From positions 1 through 40,902 of the IMG/VR virus record IMGVR_UViG_3300047409_000338: a stretch of DNA of 40,902 nt. The stretch is one strand, 5' to 3'. Positions 2,034 to 40,902 of this stretch are shown here, in pieces. Source of the stretch: a virus. The translations under genes were made by a program, and so were the position numbers. The first letter of the stretch is position 1, and every line of letters begins with the position of its first letter. Under the pieces are notes generated by a model, which was not told where the DNA came from, did not search any database, and saw only the letters and a program-made list of their open reading frames with translations.

Positions 2034-2231
2034 ATGGATGAGTCGCGCGTACTCAATGATGCGGAGAGGGTGGCCAAGCTCGAGCAGGAGCTGCGCGCGC
2101 TTGAGGATACCGTCGGGTTCCTCATCGTCACCTTGCCGGACAATTGTCTCTCTGCTCACGATATGGAACGCTTGTTGAGCCGCTTGGGGCCTCGCGTGGT
2201 GGATCGGCTGGTGCGTGAGGGCGATGACTGA
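2034..2231 (+). CDS. Small coiled-coil hypothetical protein before TerL
   Basis: A 65-residue acidic protein. Residues 8-30 (NDAERVAKLEQELRALEDTV) look like a coiled coil, followed by a second helix region. The end overlaps the TerL start (ATGACTGA around 2224-2231), so it is translationally coupled to the packaging ATPase. It could assist terminase assembly; this is inferred from position only. Confidence 0.65.
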   Translation: MDESRVLNDAERVAKLEQELRALEDTVGFLIVTLPDNCLSAHDMERLLSRLGPRVVDRLVREGDD

Positions 2232-3630
2232 CCCCGACACCTGCCGCATGGTCTGGCGTGGCGATATTGCCAAGTTCATGCTGGACGAGACCCGGCTCTG
2301 TAATGCAGAAGGCGCATTTAGAAGTGGGAAGACCACGGCCGCCCTGTGGAAGGTCTACAACAGTTGCGTCGCGCACCCCGGCATCTGCTGGCTGATCTGC
2401 CGGTACGGGGACGGCGACACGCAAACCAAGCTGAAACCCAAATGGCGGGACGTGCTGCGCGCCGCCGGCGTGACCGCGCGGTGGGACTCGGCCGAACTGT
2501 GCGACGTGCTCCCGAACGGCAGCAAGGTGCACATCTTCGGCATCAAGGCCCAAGACCAGGTCGCGCGCTACGGGAAACTGCGCGGGTTGACGCTCGCCGG
2601 GGTCTACAACGACCAGACGGAAGAGCTGCCGAAAGACATCTTCCAGGAGCTGATCGGCCGGTTGAGCCAGGCGGGGTTCCCGCATCAAATGCTGCTGACG
2701 CCCAACCCCCCCGACGAGAATCATTGGCTGGTCGAGGAGTTCCCCGTCGACAACCACCGCGCGGGCCGGCAGTATTACTCGATTCCCATCTATGCCAATG
2801 CCGCGAACCTGCATCCGGACGCCATCAAGGGGTTAGAAGACGCCTATCCGCCCGTCCATCCGAAGCACCGCTCGGCCGTGCTCGGGCTGCGGGGACTGAA
2901 CGTCATCGGCGAACCCGTCTACAAAGGGCTCTTCGTCAGGGCGCTGCATGAGCGGCCGTGTCTCTACAACCCGGCCGTGGCCTTGGATGAAGGGATCGAC
3001 TTCGGCAAGCACCACCCGTGCATCGTGTGGCGGCAGACGACGCCACTCGGGACGGTGCAGTATCTCGGGGGCCTCATCGGGCAAAACTTGTATCTCGAGG
3101 ACTTTCTCCCCATTGTGCAGCGGTATCGGCGGGAGTGGTTCCCCGATCCGGTGGAGATCCGGTCGTGTTGTGACCCGGCGGGGTCGCATGACAACAGCCA
3201 GGGCGTGCGCGATAACGGGGTGAGCTTGCTGCAGAAGGCGGGCTTCAGTGTGCGGTGGCTGATGAACAGCAACGCGCCGGACGTGCGGCTGGCGATGGTG
3301 GAGCGGCACGGGGGGTATATGCGGCGGCGGGTGGCCTCTGGCGGGGAAGCGTTCCAGGTGAACCCTGGCCATTGGTTGCGGGTGAGTGCGGAGGCGACGG
3401 TGCCGTGGGCGTTTCTGGCGGACGGCTTCGAGGCCGGGTACGTGTGGGATGAGCACATGGTCAGCGTCGGCAGTAAGCAGGTGCGGAAACCGCGGAAAGA
3501 CGGCTGGTTTGAACACGGGATGAACTGCGCCGAGTATCTCGAGCTGAACTTTGGCAGTCGGCCGTATGTGGCGCCGAAGGTGCGGCCGGCGGTCGATGTG
3601 CCGCAGGGGGAGCATGCGTGGCTGGTCTAA
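2224..3630 (+). CDS. terL: Terminase large subunit (DNA-packaging ATPase/nuclease)
   Basis: About 468 residues. It drives DNA into the prohead by ATP hydrolysis and cuts the concatemer. The N-terminal ATPase domain shows a Walker A motif (GAFRSGKTT, about residues 30-39) and a Walker B region with the acidic pair after hydrophobics (LAGVYNDQTEEL, about 124-135). A coupling-type LTPNPP follows. The C-terminal nuclease domain has candidate metal ligands in DEGIDFGKHH (about 255-264) and CCDPAGSHDN. Length and motif order fit PBSX/T4-type TerL. ATG 2224 is preferred (overlap with the previous stop); an in-frame GTG at 2215 is possible. Confidence 0.93.
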   Translation: MTDPDTCRMVWRGDIAKFMLDETRLCNAEGAFRSGKTTAALWKVYNSCVAHPGICWLICRYGDGDTQTKLKPKWRDVLRAAGVTARWDSAELCDVLPNGSKVHIFGIKAQDQVARYGKLRGLTLAGVYNDQTEELPKDIFQELIGRLSQAGFPHQMLLTPNPPDENHWLVEEFPVDNHRAGRQYYSIPIYANAANLHPDAIKGLEDAYPPVHPKHRSAVLGLRGLNVIGEPVYKGLFVRALHERPCLYNPAVALDEGIDFGKHHPCIVWRQTTPLGTVQYLGGLIGQNLYLEDFLPIVQRYRREWFPDPVEIRSCCDPAGSHDNSQGVRDNGVSLLQKAGFSVRWLMNSNAPDVRLAMVERHGGYMRRRVASGGEAFQVNPGHWLRVSAEATVPWAFLADGFEAGYVWDEHMVSVGSKQVRKPRKDGWFEHGMNCAEYLELNFGSRPYVAPKVRPAVDVPQGEHAWLV

Positions 3631-3650
3631 GCCGGGAGGACGCGAGTGCG

Positions 3651-4069: not shown

Positions 4070-4390
4070 ATGACCACGCAGGAGGCAGACGATTTCCGAC
4101 GCCTGCTGGCCGACCTGATGACGGTCAAGGCGGCGCGCGACCAGGCCGAGGCCGAGCGGGATCGGCGCGGCGAGTGGCTGCTGGCGCTTGGGCTGTGGCG
4201 TGAACGTGCCGAACACGCCGAGGCGACCCTGGCGGCGATTCGGGCGTGGGCGGATCAGCCGATCCCTGGCGTCTCAATATTCGATGCGCGATATGAACTA
4301 CGGCGGCAGGTGCTCGCCCTGCTCGACGCTGCGCCGAAGGCGGCAGCCGACGGTGCCGGCGTGGGCGGCCCGGTGACAGGTACGACATAG
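4070..4390 (+). CDS. Coiled-coil hypothetical protein
   Basis: 106 residues starting at an ATG 4 bp after the previous stop. Residues 5-60 are highly charged and helical (DDFRRLLADLMTVKAARDQAEAERD) with heptad character. The middle carries AIRAWADQPIPG, then another helix and a small-residue tail. The last 93 bp overlap a gene on the opposite strand (4298-4657), tail to tail. No function is assigned. Confidence 0.55.
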   Translation: MTTQEADDFRRLLADLMTVKAARDQAEAERDRRGEWLLALGLWRERAEHAEATLAAIRAWADQPIPGVSIFDARYELRRQVLALLDAAPKAAADGAGVGGPVTGTT

Positions 4391-4657
4391 CCGTTCAACA
4401 TGGTCCGGCTGGTCGTAATCGGGATGGTGATTCTCGGCCTGACGGTGTCCGCAGCGGACGCAGGGGGCGGGCGGGTCATGGTGTCGACGCTGCTGCATCA
4501 GGGTCCGGTGCCGGACGCGCACGTGGTGGCGCTGCTCGACGGTCATCTCGGCGTAGGTCGGGCGATGGGCGCGCATGTAGGCGGCGTGACACGCGCGGCA
4601 GTAGCGTTGCCCTGACCGGGGCGGGACGCGACGACAACACGAACACCGATGTTCCAC
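4298..4657 (-). CDS. HNH-like zinc-binding protein
   Basis: 119 residues on the - strand from GTG 4657. The N-terminus has CSCC and CRAC cysteine pairs. The core reads CVRCGHRQAENHHPDY, then LCRTCHRAAH, a treble-clef/HNH-type zinc site (C-x2-C, HH, C-x2-CH) typical of short phage proteins related to HNH nucleases. The C-terminal 20 residues overlap the opposite gene and may be unconserved. It stands alone among rightward genes, as mobile or accessory genes do. Nuclease activity is uncertain because no second catalytic helix is visible. Confidence 0.65.
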   Translation of the reverse strand: MEHRCSCCRRVPPRSGQRYCRACHAAYMRAHRPTYAEMTVEQRHHVRVRHRTLMQQRRHHDPPAPCVRCGHRQAENHHPDYDQPDHVERLCRTCHRAAHAGTVGCRLRRSVEQGEHLPP

Positions 4658-17741: not shown

Positions 17742-18809
17742 ATGGACGTCATTCGTATCCCTTCGGGCACCTACGTCGACGCGCGACCGGATGGGCGCTA
17801 CGCCTGTCTCGTGGTGGATGCCTTCGACGTCGGGACGATCGAGACCGACACCGGCACGCTCACGATTCCCGGCGATGCGCGGCCCCTGTATCTGCGCGTC
17901 ACGCGCGACGGCGCGTTCAAGTTCGCGGGGCAGTCGAGTAACACGCCGCAGACGATTGAATACATTGACGGCACCGGCTGGGTACCCCGCGCGACCGTGC
18001 CCTGCGGCGTGTCGCCGGTCATCTACGACCACTCAGGCACGTTGCACATCTCGGCGTGCGAAGTCGGCGTCGGCACGCAAGGCTACCGCTACGTGGACGT
18101 CGACACGGGCGCGATTGTCTCGGCCGATGCGACCTACGGGTCCGACTTCGGCCTGGCGCAATGGACGCTGCTCGGGGACGGGTTCTACATCGGCCAGTGC
18201 AACACGACGCCCGGCTGCGCGTCGTGGGACGGGACCAACCTGCGGCTGATTGAAGCCGGCAACTGCTTCTTCATTCGCGCGCAACGGGTCGGGAACGACG
18301 TCGCGATTGCGATGGTGAAAGACGCGGGCGTCCCGTCGGTCGTCGTCTTCGCCACGATGGCCGAGCTGCGGTCGGGCGCGACCTTGTCGCCCGGCGGCGG
18401 CACGGTGCATCCCCCCTTGCAACATCCCGTCGTGGATGCGGCGACCGGCGACCGCGTCACCCGGCCGTGGGCGATGTTCTTCGAGCAGCAGACGACCGGC
18501 CAGGCCGACCTCTCGCACGCCATCGCCATCCAGCCGACGCCCGTGCCGCCGCCGGCCGGGTTTGGGATCGTCGCCGGGGGCGGGCCGCTCGTGGCCGCGA
18601 CCGTGCCGACCGATACGCTCACGCTCACGAGTGTCGATGCGTCGGTGGCCTTCACGAGTGACCCGCTGACGAAGACGATCGACCTGTCGGCCGGCGGCAC
18701 GGGGCCGACCAGCACCCACTACGACGCACCGCTCAGTGACGGCGACCTCGTCGCGGCCGATCTCATTTTCGCGGCGGGCGAGTGCATCATCGTGCAGGTG
18801 CCGGTATGA
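17742..18809 (+). CDS. Tail protein with duplicated N-terminal module
   Basis: 355 residues. Residues 1-215 (IPSGTYVDARPDGRYACLVVD ... GYRYVDVDTGAIV ... FIGQCNTTPGCASWDGTNL) are clearly paralogous to residues 1-215 of the protein at 28056. Only the C-termini differ. Here the C-terminus is beta-rich and low in charge (FGIVAGGGPLVAATVPTDTLTLTSVDASVAF), as in fibre shafts. The shared module is probably the virion attachment part and the variable C-terminus the functional end. It overlaps the next gene by 4 bp (ATGA). Confidence 0.7.
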   Translation: MDVIRIPSGTYVDARPDGRYACLVVDAFDVGTIETDTGTLTIPGDARPLYLRVTRDGAFKFAGQSSNTPQTIEYIDGTGWVPRATVPCGVSPVIYDHSGTLHISACEVGVGTQGYRYVDVDTGAIVSADATYGSDFGLAQWTLLGDGFYIGQCNTTPGCASWDGTNLRLIEAGNCFFIRAQRVGNDVAIAMVKDAGVPSVVVFATMAELRSGATLSPGGGTVHPPLQHPVVDAATGDRVTRPWAMFFEQQTTGQADLSHAIAIQPTPVPPPAGFGIVAGGGPLVAATVPTDTLTLTSVDASVAFTSDPLTKTIDLSAGGTGPTSTHYDAPLSDGDLVAADLIFAAGECIIVQVPV

Positions 18810-28059: not shown

Positions 28060-29828
28060 GAGTCCTGCACATTCCCTTCGGCACCTACGTCGATGCGCGG
28101 CCTGACGGCCGCTTTGCGTGCCTGGTCGTCGACGACGGCCCGGCGATGCAGCTCGATACCGAGCGGCTGACGATTCCGCGCGACAGTCGGCCGCTCTACG
28201 TGCGCGTGCCCCGCGATGGGCCGTTCAAGTTTGCCGGACAGAGCAGCAACTCGCCAGAGACCATCGAGTGGATTGAAGGCACGGGCTGGGTGCCGCGGCC
28301 GGTGGTGCCGTGCGGCATTTCGCCCGTCATCTACGACCACGCGGGGACGCTCCACATCTCCGACTGCGGCCCGGCGGTGGGCTCGCAGGGGTATCGGTAC
28401 GTCGACTACGACACGGGCGCACTCGTCACCGGCGACCAGACGCTCGGGTCCGACTTCGGCCTGGCCGAGTGGACGTATTTAGGCGATGGCGTCTACGTGG
28501 GGCAGTGCAATGTCACGCCGGGGTGTGCGGTCTACGATGGCACGGCCTTGCGGATGCTCGAGCCCGGCGACTGTTTCTTTATTCGTGGGCAGCGGGTGGG
28601 GCAGGACGTGTCACTGGCGATGGTGCGGCATGCCGGCGACCCGGCCGTCATTGTCTGGGCGACGATGGACGAGCTGCGCGCCTTGCCCGTCATTCCGCAG
28701 ACCCCGCCCGTCGTGGTCTATCCGGCCGTGGCGCCGTTTACCCATGCGGTGTCCATCGCCCCGTTCAAAGACCCCGAGGGCACGTCAGAGGCCGATAGCG
28801 AAGTCGTCATCGACGGCGCCCGTCAAGCGGTGCCGCGGCCGTGCTGGGTGGGGTTCGACCTGGACGGCGGGACGACGGCCATTGACCGGGCGGCCGAAGA
28901 CGAGACGCTGCTCGGCGTCTACGCGCAAGACCACGGCGACCGCGGCGTCGAGCACGCACGCATCGTGGCCGACCGATTGAAGTGTCGCATCGCGTGGCTG
29001 CAGGACAGCCCTGACCCGCCGGTCGTGCCGGCCGAACTCAAGGCGTGGGACCAGGTGTGGGTGGAGGAGTATTTGGTCGCCGGCGAGACGTTGGCGGACG
29101 CGCGGGCGCGGTGGACGCGCGCCGAAGCGGCGGCCCTCGCCAGCCAGTGCCACGACCTCGGCCTGGTCCCGATGTATTACGGGGACTTTGGCGACCAGGC
29201 GACCGTCGACGCCATTGCGTCGTCGCTCACGACCGTGAACACGAACCCGCGCTGGAAGGTGATTGCGCCGTTTCAGTACGAGCGGGTGAACGGCATTACG
29301 GGCCGGCCGCCCATTGCTGAGATGTATGGGCGGACGCTCGATGCCAGTGTGCTCGGCGAGCCGGCATGGACGCCGATGCCGGACCCGCCGGTGCCGCCGA
29401 AGCCGCCCGATCCGCCCATTGAGCCGCCGATTCCGCCCGATCCACCGATTGAACCGCCCGTTGAGGTGCCTATGCCGATTCCGCCTGTGACTAGTTGGCC
29501 GTTTGTCCATCAAGCGGGGAAGTCGCCCGTCTCGCTCACGGTGACGGCGCCGTTCGCCGTGCCGCACCCGACCAGTGGCTACGAGGACTTCCAGACCGCC
29601 ATCCGGGCCGTGAAGCCGGACGGCGACTATGTGGACGGGTTCCTCGGCGGCTGGGCGATGCTGTCGGGCGGGGCCGCGCCCGACGTGGCCGCGGGGAAGG
29701 CGCTGTCGATCCTTCACGACGGGGCCAGGAACAAGAACAAAAACAACTACGGGCAAGGCTATACCGACATCTGGCGGCTGCTCGTCGAGAAGGGCTGCGA
29801 CGTCGACGCGACCTTGGCGGCCCAGTGA
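28056..29828 (+). CDS. Tail protein: duplicated N-module, TIM-barrel-like middle, Pro linker
   Basis: 590 residues. Residues 1-215 are paralogous to the protein at 17742. Residues about 260-440 (CWVGFDLDGGTTAIDRAAED ... CHDLGLVPMYYGDFGDQ ... WKVIAPFQYERVNG) alternate strands and helices like a glycoside-hydrolase-type TIM barrel. A repeated PPDPPIEPP linker (about 445-475) follows, and then a compact C-terminal domain (GYEDFQTAIRAVKPDGDYVDGFLGGWAML). It may degrade or bind host surface glycans. Catalytic acids cannot be assigned with confidence. It overlaps the next start (GTGA). Confidence 0.65.
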   Translation: MRVLHIPFGTYVDARPDGRFACLVVDDGPAMQLDTERLTIPRDSRPLYVRVPRDGPFKFAGQSSNSPETIEWIEGTGWVPRPVVPCGISPVIYDHAGTLHISDCGPAVGSQGYRYVDYDTGALVTGDQTLGSDFGLAEWTYLGDGVYVGQCNVTPGCAVYDGTALRMLEPGDCFFIRGQRVGQDVSLAMVRHAGDPAVIVWATMDELRALPVIPQTPPVVVYPAVAPFTHAVSIAPFKDPEGTSEADSEVVIDGARQAVPRPCWVGFDLDGGTTAIDRAAEDETLLGVYAQDHGDRGVEHARIVADRLKCRIAWLQDSPDPPVVPAELKAWDQVWVEEYLVAGETLADARARWTRAEAAALASQCHDLGLVPMYYGDFGDQATVDAIASSLTTVNTNPRWKVIAPFQYERVNGITGRPPIAEMYGRTLDASVLGEPAWTPMPDPPVPPKPPDPPIEPPIPPDPPIEPPVEVPMPIPPVTSWPFVHQAGKSPVSLTVTAPFAVPHPTSGYEDFQTAIRAVKPDGDYVDGFLGGWAMLSGGAAPDVAAGKALSILHDGARNKNKNNYGQGYTDIWRLLVEKGCDVDATLAAQ

Positions 29829-38281: not shown

Positions 38282-38952
38282 CGCCAAGTCTCATCATCCA
38301 TCGCTGCGACCAGCGGACGGATGCGTGGTTTGCGGCCCGGTGCGGCAAGGTGACGGGCAGTCACGCGGCCGACATGCTGGCGACCATCAAGAGCGGGGAA
38401 GCCACGGGCCGGCGGACGTTGCGCGAGTCGCTGGTCGTCGAGCGCCTGGCCGGGCAGAAAGTGGAAAACGGCTTTGTGAGCGCCGATATGCAGCGCGGCA
38501 CGGACCTGGAACCGGCGGCGATTGCCGCCTATGAAGCGCAGACCGGCGTGCTGGTGCAGGCGGTCGGCTTCGTCGAACGGATGGATCTGGCGGTCGGCTG
38601 TTCGCCCGATGGCGTGCTCGGCGCCTGGGATGGGCTGCTCGAAGTCAAATGCCCGCGAGCGACCACGCATCTCGGCTATTGGCGCAGCGGGGGCGTGCCC
38701 TCGGCGTATGTCGCGCAACTGCGCCATGCGCTGTATGTGACGGGGCTCCCGTATATCGACTTCGCGTCGTTTGATCCGCGCTTTCCACCCGAGTTGCAAC
38801 TGTTCGTCGTGCGCTTCACGGCGGCGGATGCGGACTTGCCGGCCTACGATCGGTTGGTGCGCGCGTTTCTCGCGGAAGTCGACACGGAACTGCAAGCCGT
38901 GCGGACGATGATCAACCTGCGCGGCACGTTGCGAGAAGCGGCGCATGTCTAG
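38278..38952 (+). CDS. YqaJ/lambda-exonuclease-type recombinase nuclease
   Basis: 224 residues. It degrades one strand of double-stranded DNA ends 5'-3' to give the single strands used by Bet. The PD-(D/E)XK core is visible: R..AWFAARCGKVTGSHAADML near the N-terminus, GTDLEPAAIAAYE (E78), CSPDGVLG (D111), and LEVKCP (E122 and K124). Length and motif spacing are normal for the YqaJ family. The stop overlaps the next start by 8 bp. Confidence 0.93.
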   Translation: MTPSLIIHRCDQRTDAWFAARCGKVTGSHAADMLATIKSGEATGRRTLRESLVVERLAGQKVENGFVSADMQRGTDLEPAAIAAYEAQTGVLVQAVGFVERMDLAVGCSPDGVLGAWDGLLEVKCPRATTHLGYWRSGGVPSAYVAQLRHALYVTGLPYIDFASFDPRFPPELQLFVVRFTAADADLPAYDRLVRAFLAEVDTELQAVRTMINLRGTLREAAHV

Positions 38953-39424
38953 CGCGTGCGCGATCGGCGAAGATACAGGCGAGATGGCGAAGCCCGCCCC
39001 GCTGCCGCTCGTGCTCGTCGTGCCGGTCGATGGCCAACTGGACCGCCACCAGGTGACACGCCTGCTCGGGGTGTTTCCGTCCTATGCCGGCGCGTCGGTC
39101 ACGGTGACGATCGAGAAAACCAAAGCGACACGCAGCGCCGCCCAACTGCGGTGGCTCTGGGGTCGAGCCTTGCCGCTCATCGCGGACCATTGCGGCTATG
39201 ACGCGCACGAACTCGAGCGCCTGCACTACGACTTGTTGGCGGTCCGGTTTGGGACGCATGCGGAAGTGCCGCTCTTGGCGGCGGCGCCGCCGCGCATCGT
39301 GCCGCGCATGAGCACGCGGGATTTGAGCGTGGGCGAAATGTCGCTGTATATGGATTGGCTGGTCCGCTACGCGGCGGACAGTTTGGGCGTGGTCGTGCCG
39401 TTGCCCGACGAGGTGCCGGTGTAG
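38945..39424 (+). CDS. NinB-like recombination accessory protein
   Basis: 159 residues. The pattern 'RSAAQLRWLWGRALPLIADHCGYDAHELERLHYDLLAVRFG ... STRDLSVGEMSLYMDWLVRYAADSLGVVVPLPDEV' matches the NinB/Orf-like family: Q...Y....P.IA...GY...E.H..L...F, then ST..LS..EM..YM......A...G...P.P. These proteins bind single-stranded DNA and work with phage recombination systems. It directly follows the exonuclease gene (8-bp overlap) and ends at the structured non-coding region. Confidence 0.75.
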   Translation: MSSACAIGEDTGEMAKPAPLPLVLVVPVDGQLDRHQVTRLLGVFPSYAGASVTVTIEKTKATRSAAQLRWLWGRALPLIADHCGYDAHELERLHYDLLAVRFGTHAEVPLLAAAPPRIVPRMSTRDLSVGEMSLYMDWLVRYAADSLGVVVPLPDEVPV

Positions 39425-39624
39425 GGATCGACTGGGGCCGACCGTCGTGACCTCTCCTGATGTGGCGACGGGTATCCGGTGCGCAGGTGCTAACGAAGGC
39501 TGAAAACAGCCCTGTGACGAAGTGGTGATCGTGCGAATCGCGTCGTGAGAACGCCGGGGGACAGAAGCACCACGGACAAAGGCGTGACAAGCCGGGAGAG
39601 ACCGGCATGTGAGGAGCGGACACG
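39425..39624 (+). ncRNA. Candidate structured RNA (200 nt), upstream of VRR-NUC
   Basis: No reading frame is convincing in the largest rightward gap of the recombination region. Several stems nest cleanly: GGAT (39425-39428) with ATCC (39474-39477) enclosing CCGTCG (39442-39447) with CGACGG (39466-39471); GGCTG-AAAA-CAGCC (39498-39511); GTGGTG (39522-39527) with CACCAC (39568-39573); GCCGG-GAGAGA-CCGGC (39591-39606). The stretch is purine-rich with GNRA-like loops. It ends at the GAGGAG of the next gene. It could be a cis-regulatory leader, a ribozyme-like element or a guide-RNA scaffold (HEARO/omegaRNA type is one candidate). Identity is not established. Confidence 0.6.
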
Positions 39625-40047
39625 ATGCGTAACCAGCCCGAGAAGATCATCCAGCAGCAGATCGTGACGCTGTTGCGCTCGATTGGCGCGACGGTCTATG
39701 TCCTTGGCGTGCATCGCCGGCGGGGGGATTATCCCGGCACAATGCAGACGCCGGGCCTGCCGGATCTGTATGCCTTTCTGCCGTTCTCGCTGGGGGTCTC
39801 GAATCGCGATGGGGTGGTGGAAGGCTCAGTGACGCCCAATAGTGTGTGGATTGAAGTGAAGGCGCCGGGGGGCCGCTTGAGTGAGGCCCAGTGGGCCTTT
39901 CGCATTGCCTGCGTGACCAAATCCATTGGGCACGTCATTGGCGGCGTCGATGAAGTGCTGGCATTCCTGGTCGCCGGCGGCTGGCTCAAAGCGGACGGCG
40001 TCGCCCACTATCGCCGGCCGGCCGCTCACTCGGAGGTGACACGATGA
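39625..40047 (+). CDS. VRR-NUC domain nuclease
   Basis: 140 residues, the usual size for single-domain phage VRR-NUC proteins. Active-site pattern: E6 near the start (QPEKIIQQQIVTLLR), GLPDLYA (D47), VWIEVKAPGG (E77 and K79) and LSEAQWAF (Q89). The fold is of the restriction-endonuclease type; relatives include Fan1 and phage Holliday-junction-type nucleases. In this operon it probably resolves branched DNA from recombination, in place of a RusA or RuvC. GAGGAG (39611-39616) lies before the ATG at the end of the structured region. Confidence 0.9.
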   Translation: MRNQPEKIIQQQIVTLLRSIGATVYVLGVHRRRGDYPGTMQTPGLPDLYAFLPFSLGVSNRDGVVEGSVTPNSVWIEVKAPGGRLSEAQWAFRIACVTKSIGHVIGGVDEVLAFLVAGGWLKADGVAHYRRPAAHSEVTR

Positions 40048-40659: not shown

Positions 40660-40902
40660 GTAGCAGCAACCTGACCCTCTACCGCGTACTCGTCAAGCTC
40701 GGCGCGACCGACACCGAGGCCGAGACCGCCGCGACCCTGGACACGAGTACCCTCGCCACCGGCGCGCAGCTGGGGGCGGTGCGCGAAGACCTCGCGACGG
40801 TCAAGGAAACGGTCAGCAGCCTCAAATGGATGTTTGGGATCACCTGGGCGTTTCTGACGGTGATTCTGGGCGTGGTCGTGCAGCTCCTGTTGCGGCGGCC
40901 CT
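40656..40902 (+). CDS. XhlA-like small membrane protein, 5' part (continues at 1-129)
   Basis: Across the contig join this gene encodes 82 residues. SSSNLTLYRVLVKLGATDTEAETAA is followed by a coiled-coil-like stretch (REDLATVKETVSSLK), one membrane segment (ITWAFLTVILGVVVQLLL) and RRP. XhlA-type proteins lie on the inner face of the membrane and help holins or endolysins. Here no holin or endolysin is adjacent, so the role is open. Coupled to the preceding gene by ATGA. Confidence 0.75.
   Translation, partial: MSSSNLTLYRVLVKLGATDTEAETAATLDTSTLATGAQLGAVREDLATVKETVSSLKWMFGITWAFLTVILGVVVQLLLRRP
40776..40902. repeat. Terminal direct repeat, right copy
   Basis: Identical over 127 bases to positions 1-127. 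It should be counted once when the genome is closed into a circle. Confidence 0.95.

Follow-up and report, generated by a model that had tools for sequence, protein, structure and literature searches.

The RecT- and YqaJ-encoding operon of the viral record IMGVR_UViG_3300047409_000338 contains a gap of 200 nt (39425-39624), and the question it raises is whether this gap holds a functional RNA. We analysed the record over its full 40,902 nt, called here the window. The gap sits between the stop codon of a 159-aa ORF (38945-39424) and the ATG of a 140-aa ORF (39625-40047) and is covered by short or antisense ORFs only, with no convincing frame; inspection of the ORFs agrees with an earlier note on this DNA that had called it noncoding. 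That note had also listed four exact stems, all of which we located in the sequence (Table 1), and had proposed a folded RNA that regulates, guides or is processed. The window itself begins and ends with an exact 127-bp direct repeat (1-127 and 40776-40902) and is therefore a complete phage genome, terminally redundant or circular. It carries a terminase-like large subunit ORF at 2215-3630 and, 10.3 kb apart, the two parts of a diverged duplicated gene segment (17748-18124 and 28062-28432; 71-72% identical over ~370 nt).

By energy, the fold of the gap is unremarkable. The plus strand had a minimum free energy of -75.9, compared with -71.5 ± 4.45 for shuffled sequences (z -0.98; 40 of 200 shuffles were as good), and the minus strand gave a z of -1.88. 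Energy alone would not support an RNA; the comparison of related sequences, unlike energy, provides what we judge to be decisive evidence for a structured one.

The route to these relatives was a sensitive blastn search of the gap against annotated phages, which picked up short alignments with its 3' part in unrelated phages, at places that carry no annotation. The first were Caulobacter phage BL57 and Microcystis phage Mwe-JY26, where the match lies inside tRNA clusters, and Synechococcus phage MinM2, where it lies upstream of an HNH gene. At least 120 contigs of IMG/VR contain the resulting pattern, as do 53 bacterial genome stretches, the majority of the latter with the full motif and a base-paired P3. 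The GTGACA...GGAGAGA core occurs once in the window and was absent from its shuffles, and the hairpin version occurred 131 times in the true sequence of all loci and 0 times in the reversed sequence. A covariance model of P2 and P3 (R1) matched the window copy, which was in its training set, at 39549-39609 with 49.5 bits (E 1.7e-9). In phage genomes R1 typically marks one site with 1-3 clustered copies.

Members of the family share a fixed order of parts: stem P1, an ACGCC loop that forms an H-type pseudoknot (P2) with a downstream GGCGU, an unpaired GACA, and hairpin P3 with the loop GAGAGA. The shared text reads ACGCC, a loop, GGCGTGACA, a stem, GAGAGA and a stem. The window copy fits this family of P1-P2 pseudoknot, GACA and P3 with a GARAGA loop, and the member is the 3' part of the gap, 39522-39606. 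P1 has 2-5 pairs in a fixed geometry (stem, GA, ACGCC, one base, stem), and it averages 2.22 pairs, compared with 0.74 ± 0.10 after shuffling of the 3' sides among sequences (z 15.5); neighbouring registers scored lower, and all six pair types are present. P3 is 98.6% paired, with changes on both sides at four of its five pairs and a covariation score of 0.366 (0.080 when shuffled, at most 0.054 for slid partners). The search pattern left the stem sequences of P1 and P3 free, except for the closing G of P3, while the invariance of P2 in the pattern-selected set follows from the construction of that pattern. In members found otherwise, the pairing of P2 is kept with other bases (ACACC/GGUGU; CAAGUU/AACUUG in L187, ACUGG/CCAGU in L191 and GGCG/CGCC in L193).

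Table 1. Features of the window copy and its surroundings (window coordinates).
Feature	Position	Strand	Basis
Stem GGAT/ATCC, enclosing CCGTCG/CGACGG	39425-39428 / 39474-39477	+	Sequence
Stem CCGTCG/CGACGG	39442-39447 / 39466-39471	+	Sequence
Hairpin GGCTG-AAAA-CAGCC	39498-39511	+	Sequence
5' domain, with both 5' hairpins	39425-39521	+	Sequence and a look at relatives
P0, 5' strand, GTGGTG	39522-39527	+	Pairs with 39568-39573; covaries in class II relatives, where the spacing is the same (z 4.5)
P0, 3' strand, CACCAC	39568-39573	+	Partner of 39522-39527
P1, 5' strand, GTC	39542-39544	+	Pairs with GAC 39560-39562; class II covariation z 6.4, class I geometry z 15.5
P1, 3' strand, GAC	39560-39562	+	Class II P1 covariation
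P2, 5' strand, ACGCC, in P1 loop	39551-39555	+	Pseudoknot with 39581-39585
P2, 3' strand, GGCGT	39581-39585	+	Pseudoknot partner of ACGCC 39551-39555
Unpaired conserved GACA, with one extra A in the window copy	39586-39590	+	Two alignments
P3 hairpin GCCGG-GAGAGA-CCGGC, conserved loop	39591-39606 (arms 39591-39595 / 39602-39606)	+	Covariation; R1 match
Accessory segment, 202 nt	39421-39622	+	Missing from L195/L196 (alignment)
Downstream gene, VRR-NUC nuclease	39625-40047	+	PF08774, 22.0 bits, just under the cut-off of 23.8 (Pfam)

The window copy belongs to a class (class II) that is marked by YGAGAACGCCNGG and was found in 24 contigs in a second scan. A direct pairing search in these relatives scored an additional stem, P0, which in most members lies 16-20 nt before GAG and 7-10 nt after NGG (z 4.5) and varies from GTGGTG/CACCAC in the window to GTGGCG/CGCCAC, GATCGC/GCGATC, GTGCAA/TTGCAC and GCTAGA/TCTAGC. 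Because P0 covaries in class II, the GTGGTG/CACCAC stem of the earlier note is real. P1 in this class has 2.67 of 3 pairs (2.05 ± 0.10 when shuffled; z 6.4). Comparison backs two of the four listed stems, P0 and P3 (GCCGG/CCGGC); the core pseudoknot P2 was absent from that list. Several class II relatives have a further pseudoknot-like domain upstream, and the 5' domain of the gap is a possible counterpart of it.

In the pair tables of P1 and P3, 36 cells are G-U and 4 are A-C, an excess that points to selection on this strand, as RNA. The alignments show that the element is an RNA under selection on this strand with a conserved secondary structure that covaries in P0, P1 and P3. Neither a lack of covariation nor conservation as protein code only, the outcomes that the earlier note had named as fatal to its folded RNA, was found.

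The wobble count also bears on a different kind of explanation, that the element is a DNA-level site, such as a recombination joint or a single-strand replication start, that folds as single-stranded DNA. Such strand-specific wobble is what RNA selection predicts, and we consider a DNA site very improbable, even though two aspects of distribution fit it. One is that the element is accessory in the family of the window phage. In two near relatives (L195 and L196), whose upstream protein is 89% identical to that of the window, GTGCCGCT is followed directly by CGATGCG, the region of the nuclease start codon, and the genes overlap. The models gave no match to the element in these two records, nor any above background in a whole 42-kb relative. 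The absence is clean, and the 202-nt segment was therefore gained in the window phage or lost in the relatives as one unit. The other aspect is that in freshwater phages the P3 half travels together with the gene after it, and the 5' half with the gene before it. Five of these phages (L033, L053, L077, L103 and L117) have the same downstream gene and P3 stem behind differing 5' halves, and the conserved GGCGTGACA looks as if it were a recombination joint for module exchange.

Rfam 15 (4227 families), including the HEARO, intron and riboswitch models that the earlier note had advised running over the gap, gave no match over the window element even at E <= 10. On 16 related loci, it found tRNA, GOLLD and tmRNA elsewhere and none over the elements. 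An intron, riboswitch or ribozyme known to Rfam was rejected on this ground, and with it the intron relic and the HEARO/omega-RNA scaffold, which that note had named as known structured RNAs upstream of nuclease genes. The likeness to HEARO/omega-RNA, a structured RNA beside a nuclease gene, is limited to the window; no IscB- or TnpB-type family was present among the window genes tested, as the earlier note had observed, or among the families listed for 59 downstream genes, which are of any kind. A CsrA site was also considered and rejected: P3 pairs the first G of GGA, and CsrA is missing from some hosts. The E. coli Pas sRNAs lie near capsid and tail genes with no link seen, and the BstA aba element differs in sequence and is DNA-based (PMC8585504). 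Literature searches on structured RNAs of phages, antitermination of the put kind, theta ribozymes and the leaders of prophages, mainly in journals outside subscription, yielded no earlier description. The element appears to represent a new RNA family, absent from Rfam 15.

Annotated copies occur in phages of Proteobacteria, Cyanobacteria and Actinobacteria, with hosts that include Escherichia, Klebsiella, Cronobacter, Pseudomonas, Stenotrophomonas, Vibrio, Mannheimia, Aggregatibacter, Morganella, Iodobacter, Rhodobacter, Phaeobacter, Sinorhizobium, Brevundimonas, Caulobacter, Gordonia and cyanobacterial hosts. Nearly all of these copies lie in stretches without annotation. For strand statistics, we used the annotated records instead of a crude ORF caller, which was dropped after calling 89% of GC-rich DNA coding and 70 of 106 elements 'covered'. 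Elements usually lie in untranslated sequence on the coding strand, in left-operon leaders, before terminase genes (the small subunit in Itty13, Vibrio phage PE002 and CS01) and in tRNA arrays. In 23 of 27 annotated contexts, the element and the gene or tRNA that follows share a strand; the awkward copies were L187, L194 and L225, opposite to adjacent genes, and L192, in a convergent gap. The position is usually at the start of transcription units, with one site per phage and no constant partner gene. Among 59 first downstream genes, which we searched for a partner protein, no family occurred more than twice; they include a methyltransferase, portal, head-tail adaptor, ParB, DnaT-like protein, HNH protein and primase, and a tRNA gene often stands in place of a protein gene. 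The link to a nuclease gene suggested by the earlier note is not borne out, and the VRR-NUC neighbour of the window copy is incidental.

These neighbours also speak to whether the structure controls translation initiation, riboswitch-like, with the GGAGAGA loop acting as or hiding a Shine-Dalgarno sequence. The loop does contain GGAG, and several downstream genes lack another Shine-Dalgarno sequence (L006, L123). However, tRNA genes are direct downstream neighbours, the first genes come from many unrelated families, and the distance to the start codon ranges from ~6 to >100 nt, which makes this explanation improbable.

Spacing is tight at tRNAs. Nine elements have tRNAs downstream on the same strand (1.3 expected) and 0 on the opposite strand, and in seven of the nine, 5-14 nt separate P3 from the tRNA 5' end; before protein genes, P3 often ends 7-30 nt from the start codon. 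The tRNA spacing is not predicted by the antitermination that we favour below and better fits an RNA processing or stability element, in which the pseudoknot and hairpin would mark or survive cleavage (by RNase E, III or P, or self-cleavage) and shield the mRNA 5' end or free the tRNA. Invariant unpaired bases within a pseudoknot are ribozyme-like, and theta ribozymes, which are HDV-like and cut at tRNA 3' ends in phage tRNA arrays, offer a precedent (PMC10879173). The element shares their tRNA-array setting and nested pairing, but we rejected it as a theta ribozyme because, compared by description and position, it is not an HDV double pseudoknot and lies 5' of the tRNAs (PMC10879173). Against processing in general, the element of lambdoid leaders is separated from the first gene by 250-400 nt that include a terminator, and the family alignment had no strong conservation 3' of P3 or 5' of P1 that would make a candidate cleavage site. 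We consider processing unlikely, though not negligible.

Alternatively, the element may be a module of a larger stand-alone noncoding RNA that acts in trans, like GOLLD or ROOL, with its own promoter and terminator. Many copies do lie in gaps of 380-950 nt, the upstream pseudoknot domain is common to class II relatives, a few copies are antisense to their neighbours, and the leader of the E. coli prophage locus L227 reads as promoter-like sequence, element, tRNA and terminator. GOLLD also lies near the element in Caulobacter phage BL57. The element resembles GOLLD, ROOL and OLE in being structured, noncoding and set in phages and tRNA arrays, but its core is only 45-85 nt, it has no Rfam match, and GOLLD is separate in the same phage. 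Minimal copies of 45-60 nt (L047, L056, L012) are squeezed in between neighbouring tRNAs or genes, where neither a promoter nor a terminator would fit, and we think a stand-alone RNA distinctly unlikely. In BL57 (L001; 2262-2748, minus strand, and 3326-3644, plus strand), GOLLD and a permuted tmRNA lie beside three element copies within a single tRNA region, and Brevundimonas phage Bajun (L225) has a similar layout.

The reading that we tentatively favour is an element that counters termination in cis and would thus do the work of HK022 put with another fold. Where a phage has a CI-type repressor near by, the element is found past it on the same strand, in the leader of the left operon or its first large gap (mEp390, P7641, Cruim01, Medea1, Mannheimia phage 587AP2, Aggregatibacter phage S1249, BUCT708 and a UTI89 prophage). 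This leader is the place of nutL in lambda and putL in HK022. In mEp390, promoter-like sequence (2574-2603) is followed by the elements, a terminator-like hairpin and the first gene, and a put-like placement after an early promoter and ahead of terminators is also seen in the UTI89 and 4750 prophages. In the E. coli prophage loci L226 and L227, the stretch from the element to the first gene contains strong intrinsic terminators, hairpins of 13-14 bp with CTTTTTACA behind them, and mEp390 has a similar hairpin, its stem altered by compensation, followed by CCTTTTCAC. The second of two terminators in L227 ends 20 nt before the ATG. A promoter cannot fit into that space, so transcription that starts upstream has to read through for the gene to be expressed. 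Lambda nut-tL1 and HK022 put are arranged in the same way, with a left-leader position and terminators before the first gene, and we therefore favour an RNA antiterminator. Two side observations concern the same leaders. Those of mEp390 (L177 2820-2905) and Klebsiella phage P7641 (L178 2818-2900) share a second conserved block, GGGACTGGAAGAGTTACCACTTGGAGACGGTCC...GTCCTGGACAGTGGCGCTT. In L226, past the leader terminator, the inverted repeat ACAGAGAAGAACA...TGTTCTTCTCTGT (4350-4440) stops at the region of the yfdP ribosome-binding site, and mEp390 has a similar repeat near 3187-3275.

Some observations count against antitermination. Four copies are awkwardly oriented, and no intrinsic terminator was seen in the window, on the plus strand from the element to the contig end, or in most GC-rich cases. 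A script found a terminator in the gap in 3 of 15 annotated cases; it missed mEp390, whose hairpin was seen by folding, owing to its T cut-off.

Lambda nut (boxA and boxB) is likewise sited in leaders and has a small hairpin with a purine-rich, GNRA-like loop. The element differs in its extra pseudoknot and in a loop kept across phyla instead of co-varying with N; an unsystematic look saw no boxA, and no linked N gene was recognized. The first gene of mEp390, P7641 and two E. coli prophages had no match to an N-type antiterminator in Pfam or PHROGs; N proteins diverge fast. HK022 put is a structured RNA of ~70 nt in phage early leaders that needs no phage protein and consists of two consecutive bulged stem-loops, with no pseudoknot mentioned (PMC9378689). 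It shares the left-operon leader with the element, whose fold differs in its pseudoknot, and in the literature found it is confined to a few lambdoid phages, whereas the element is spread over phyla. We rejected membership of the element in the HK022 put class, as fold and sequence differ and the HK022 region searched (25-31 kb) had no motif match (best R1 12.9 bits, E 0.5).

Under antitermination, the operon RNA would include the element, whether in an untranslated leader, a gap between operons or a tRNA array. While still nascent, this RNA would bind either RNA polymerase or an elongation factor that is universal, such as NusA, and elongation would become resistant to intrinsic terminators, Rho or both, with no dedicated phage protein. 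HK022 put itself suppresses termination in cis by way of the beta' zinc-binding domain. Because no partner gene recurs and the hosts span phyla, the partner is likely to be a host component that is universal; the cis action, the effect on transcription and the binding partner are all inferred. Of the earlier note's proposal, the conserved folded RNA is supported; a guide role is not.

Of 5426 complete E. coli genomes, 1568 (29%) contain a match to the left leader of mEp390, mostly through a 91-nt piece with the first copy, and no annotation was present there among the matches listed. These copies keep the architecture with a GAAGAGA loop and show compensation in P2 (CACC/GGUG against AACC/GGUU) and P3 (CCUCG/CGAGG against CCUGG/CCAGG). 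R1 scored the first mEp390 copy at 16.5 bits (E 0.07) and did not detect L226 or L227; the membership of the E. coli copies therefore hangs on their homology to mEp390.

A compact RNA with strong covariation is present in phages of many bacterial phyla, lambda-like coliphages among them, yet it has no Rfam entry or annotation. It is possible, if doubtful, that it is a general RNA-only antiterminator in phages of Proteobacteria, Cyanobacteria, Actinobacteria, Firmicutes and Acidobacteria, replacing N in the prophages of about one-third of E. coli strains. RNA-only processive antitermination would then be no peculiarity of HK022, the element would explain the expression of long operons and untranslated tRNA arrays in many phages that have no N-like gene, and it would be a portable genetic part. 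Even with another function, it would be a testable and common regulatory RNA in coliphages that are convenient for laboratory work.
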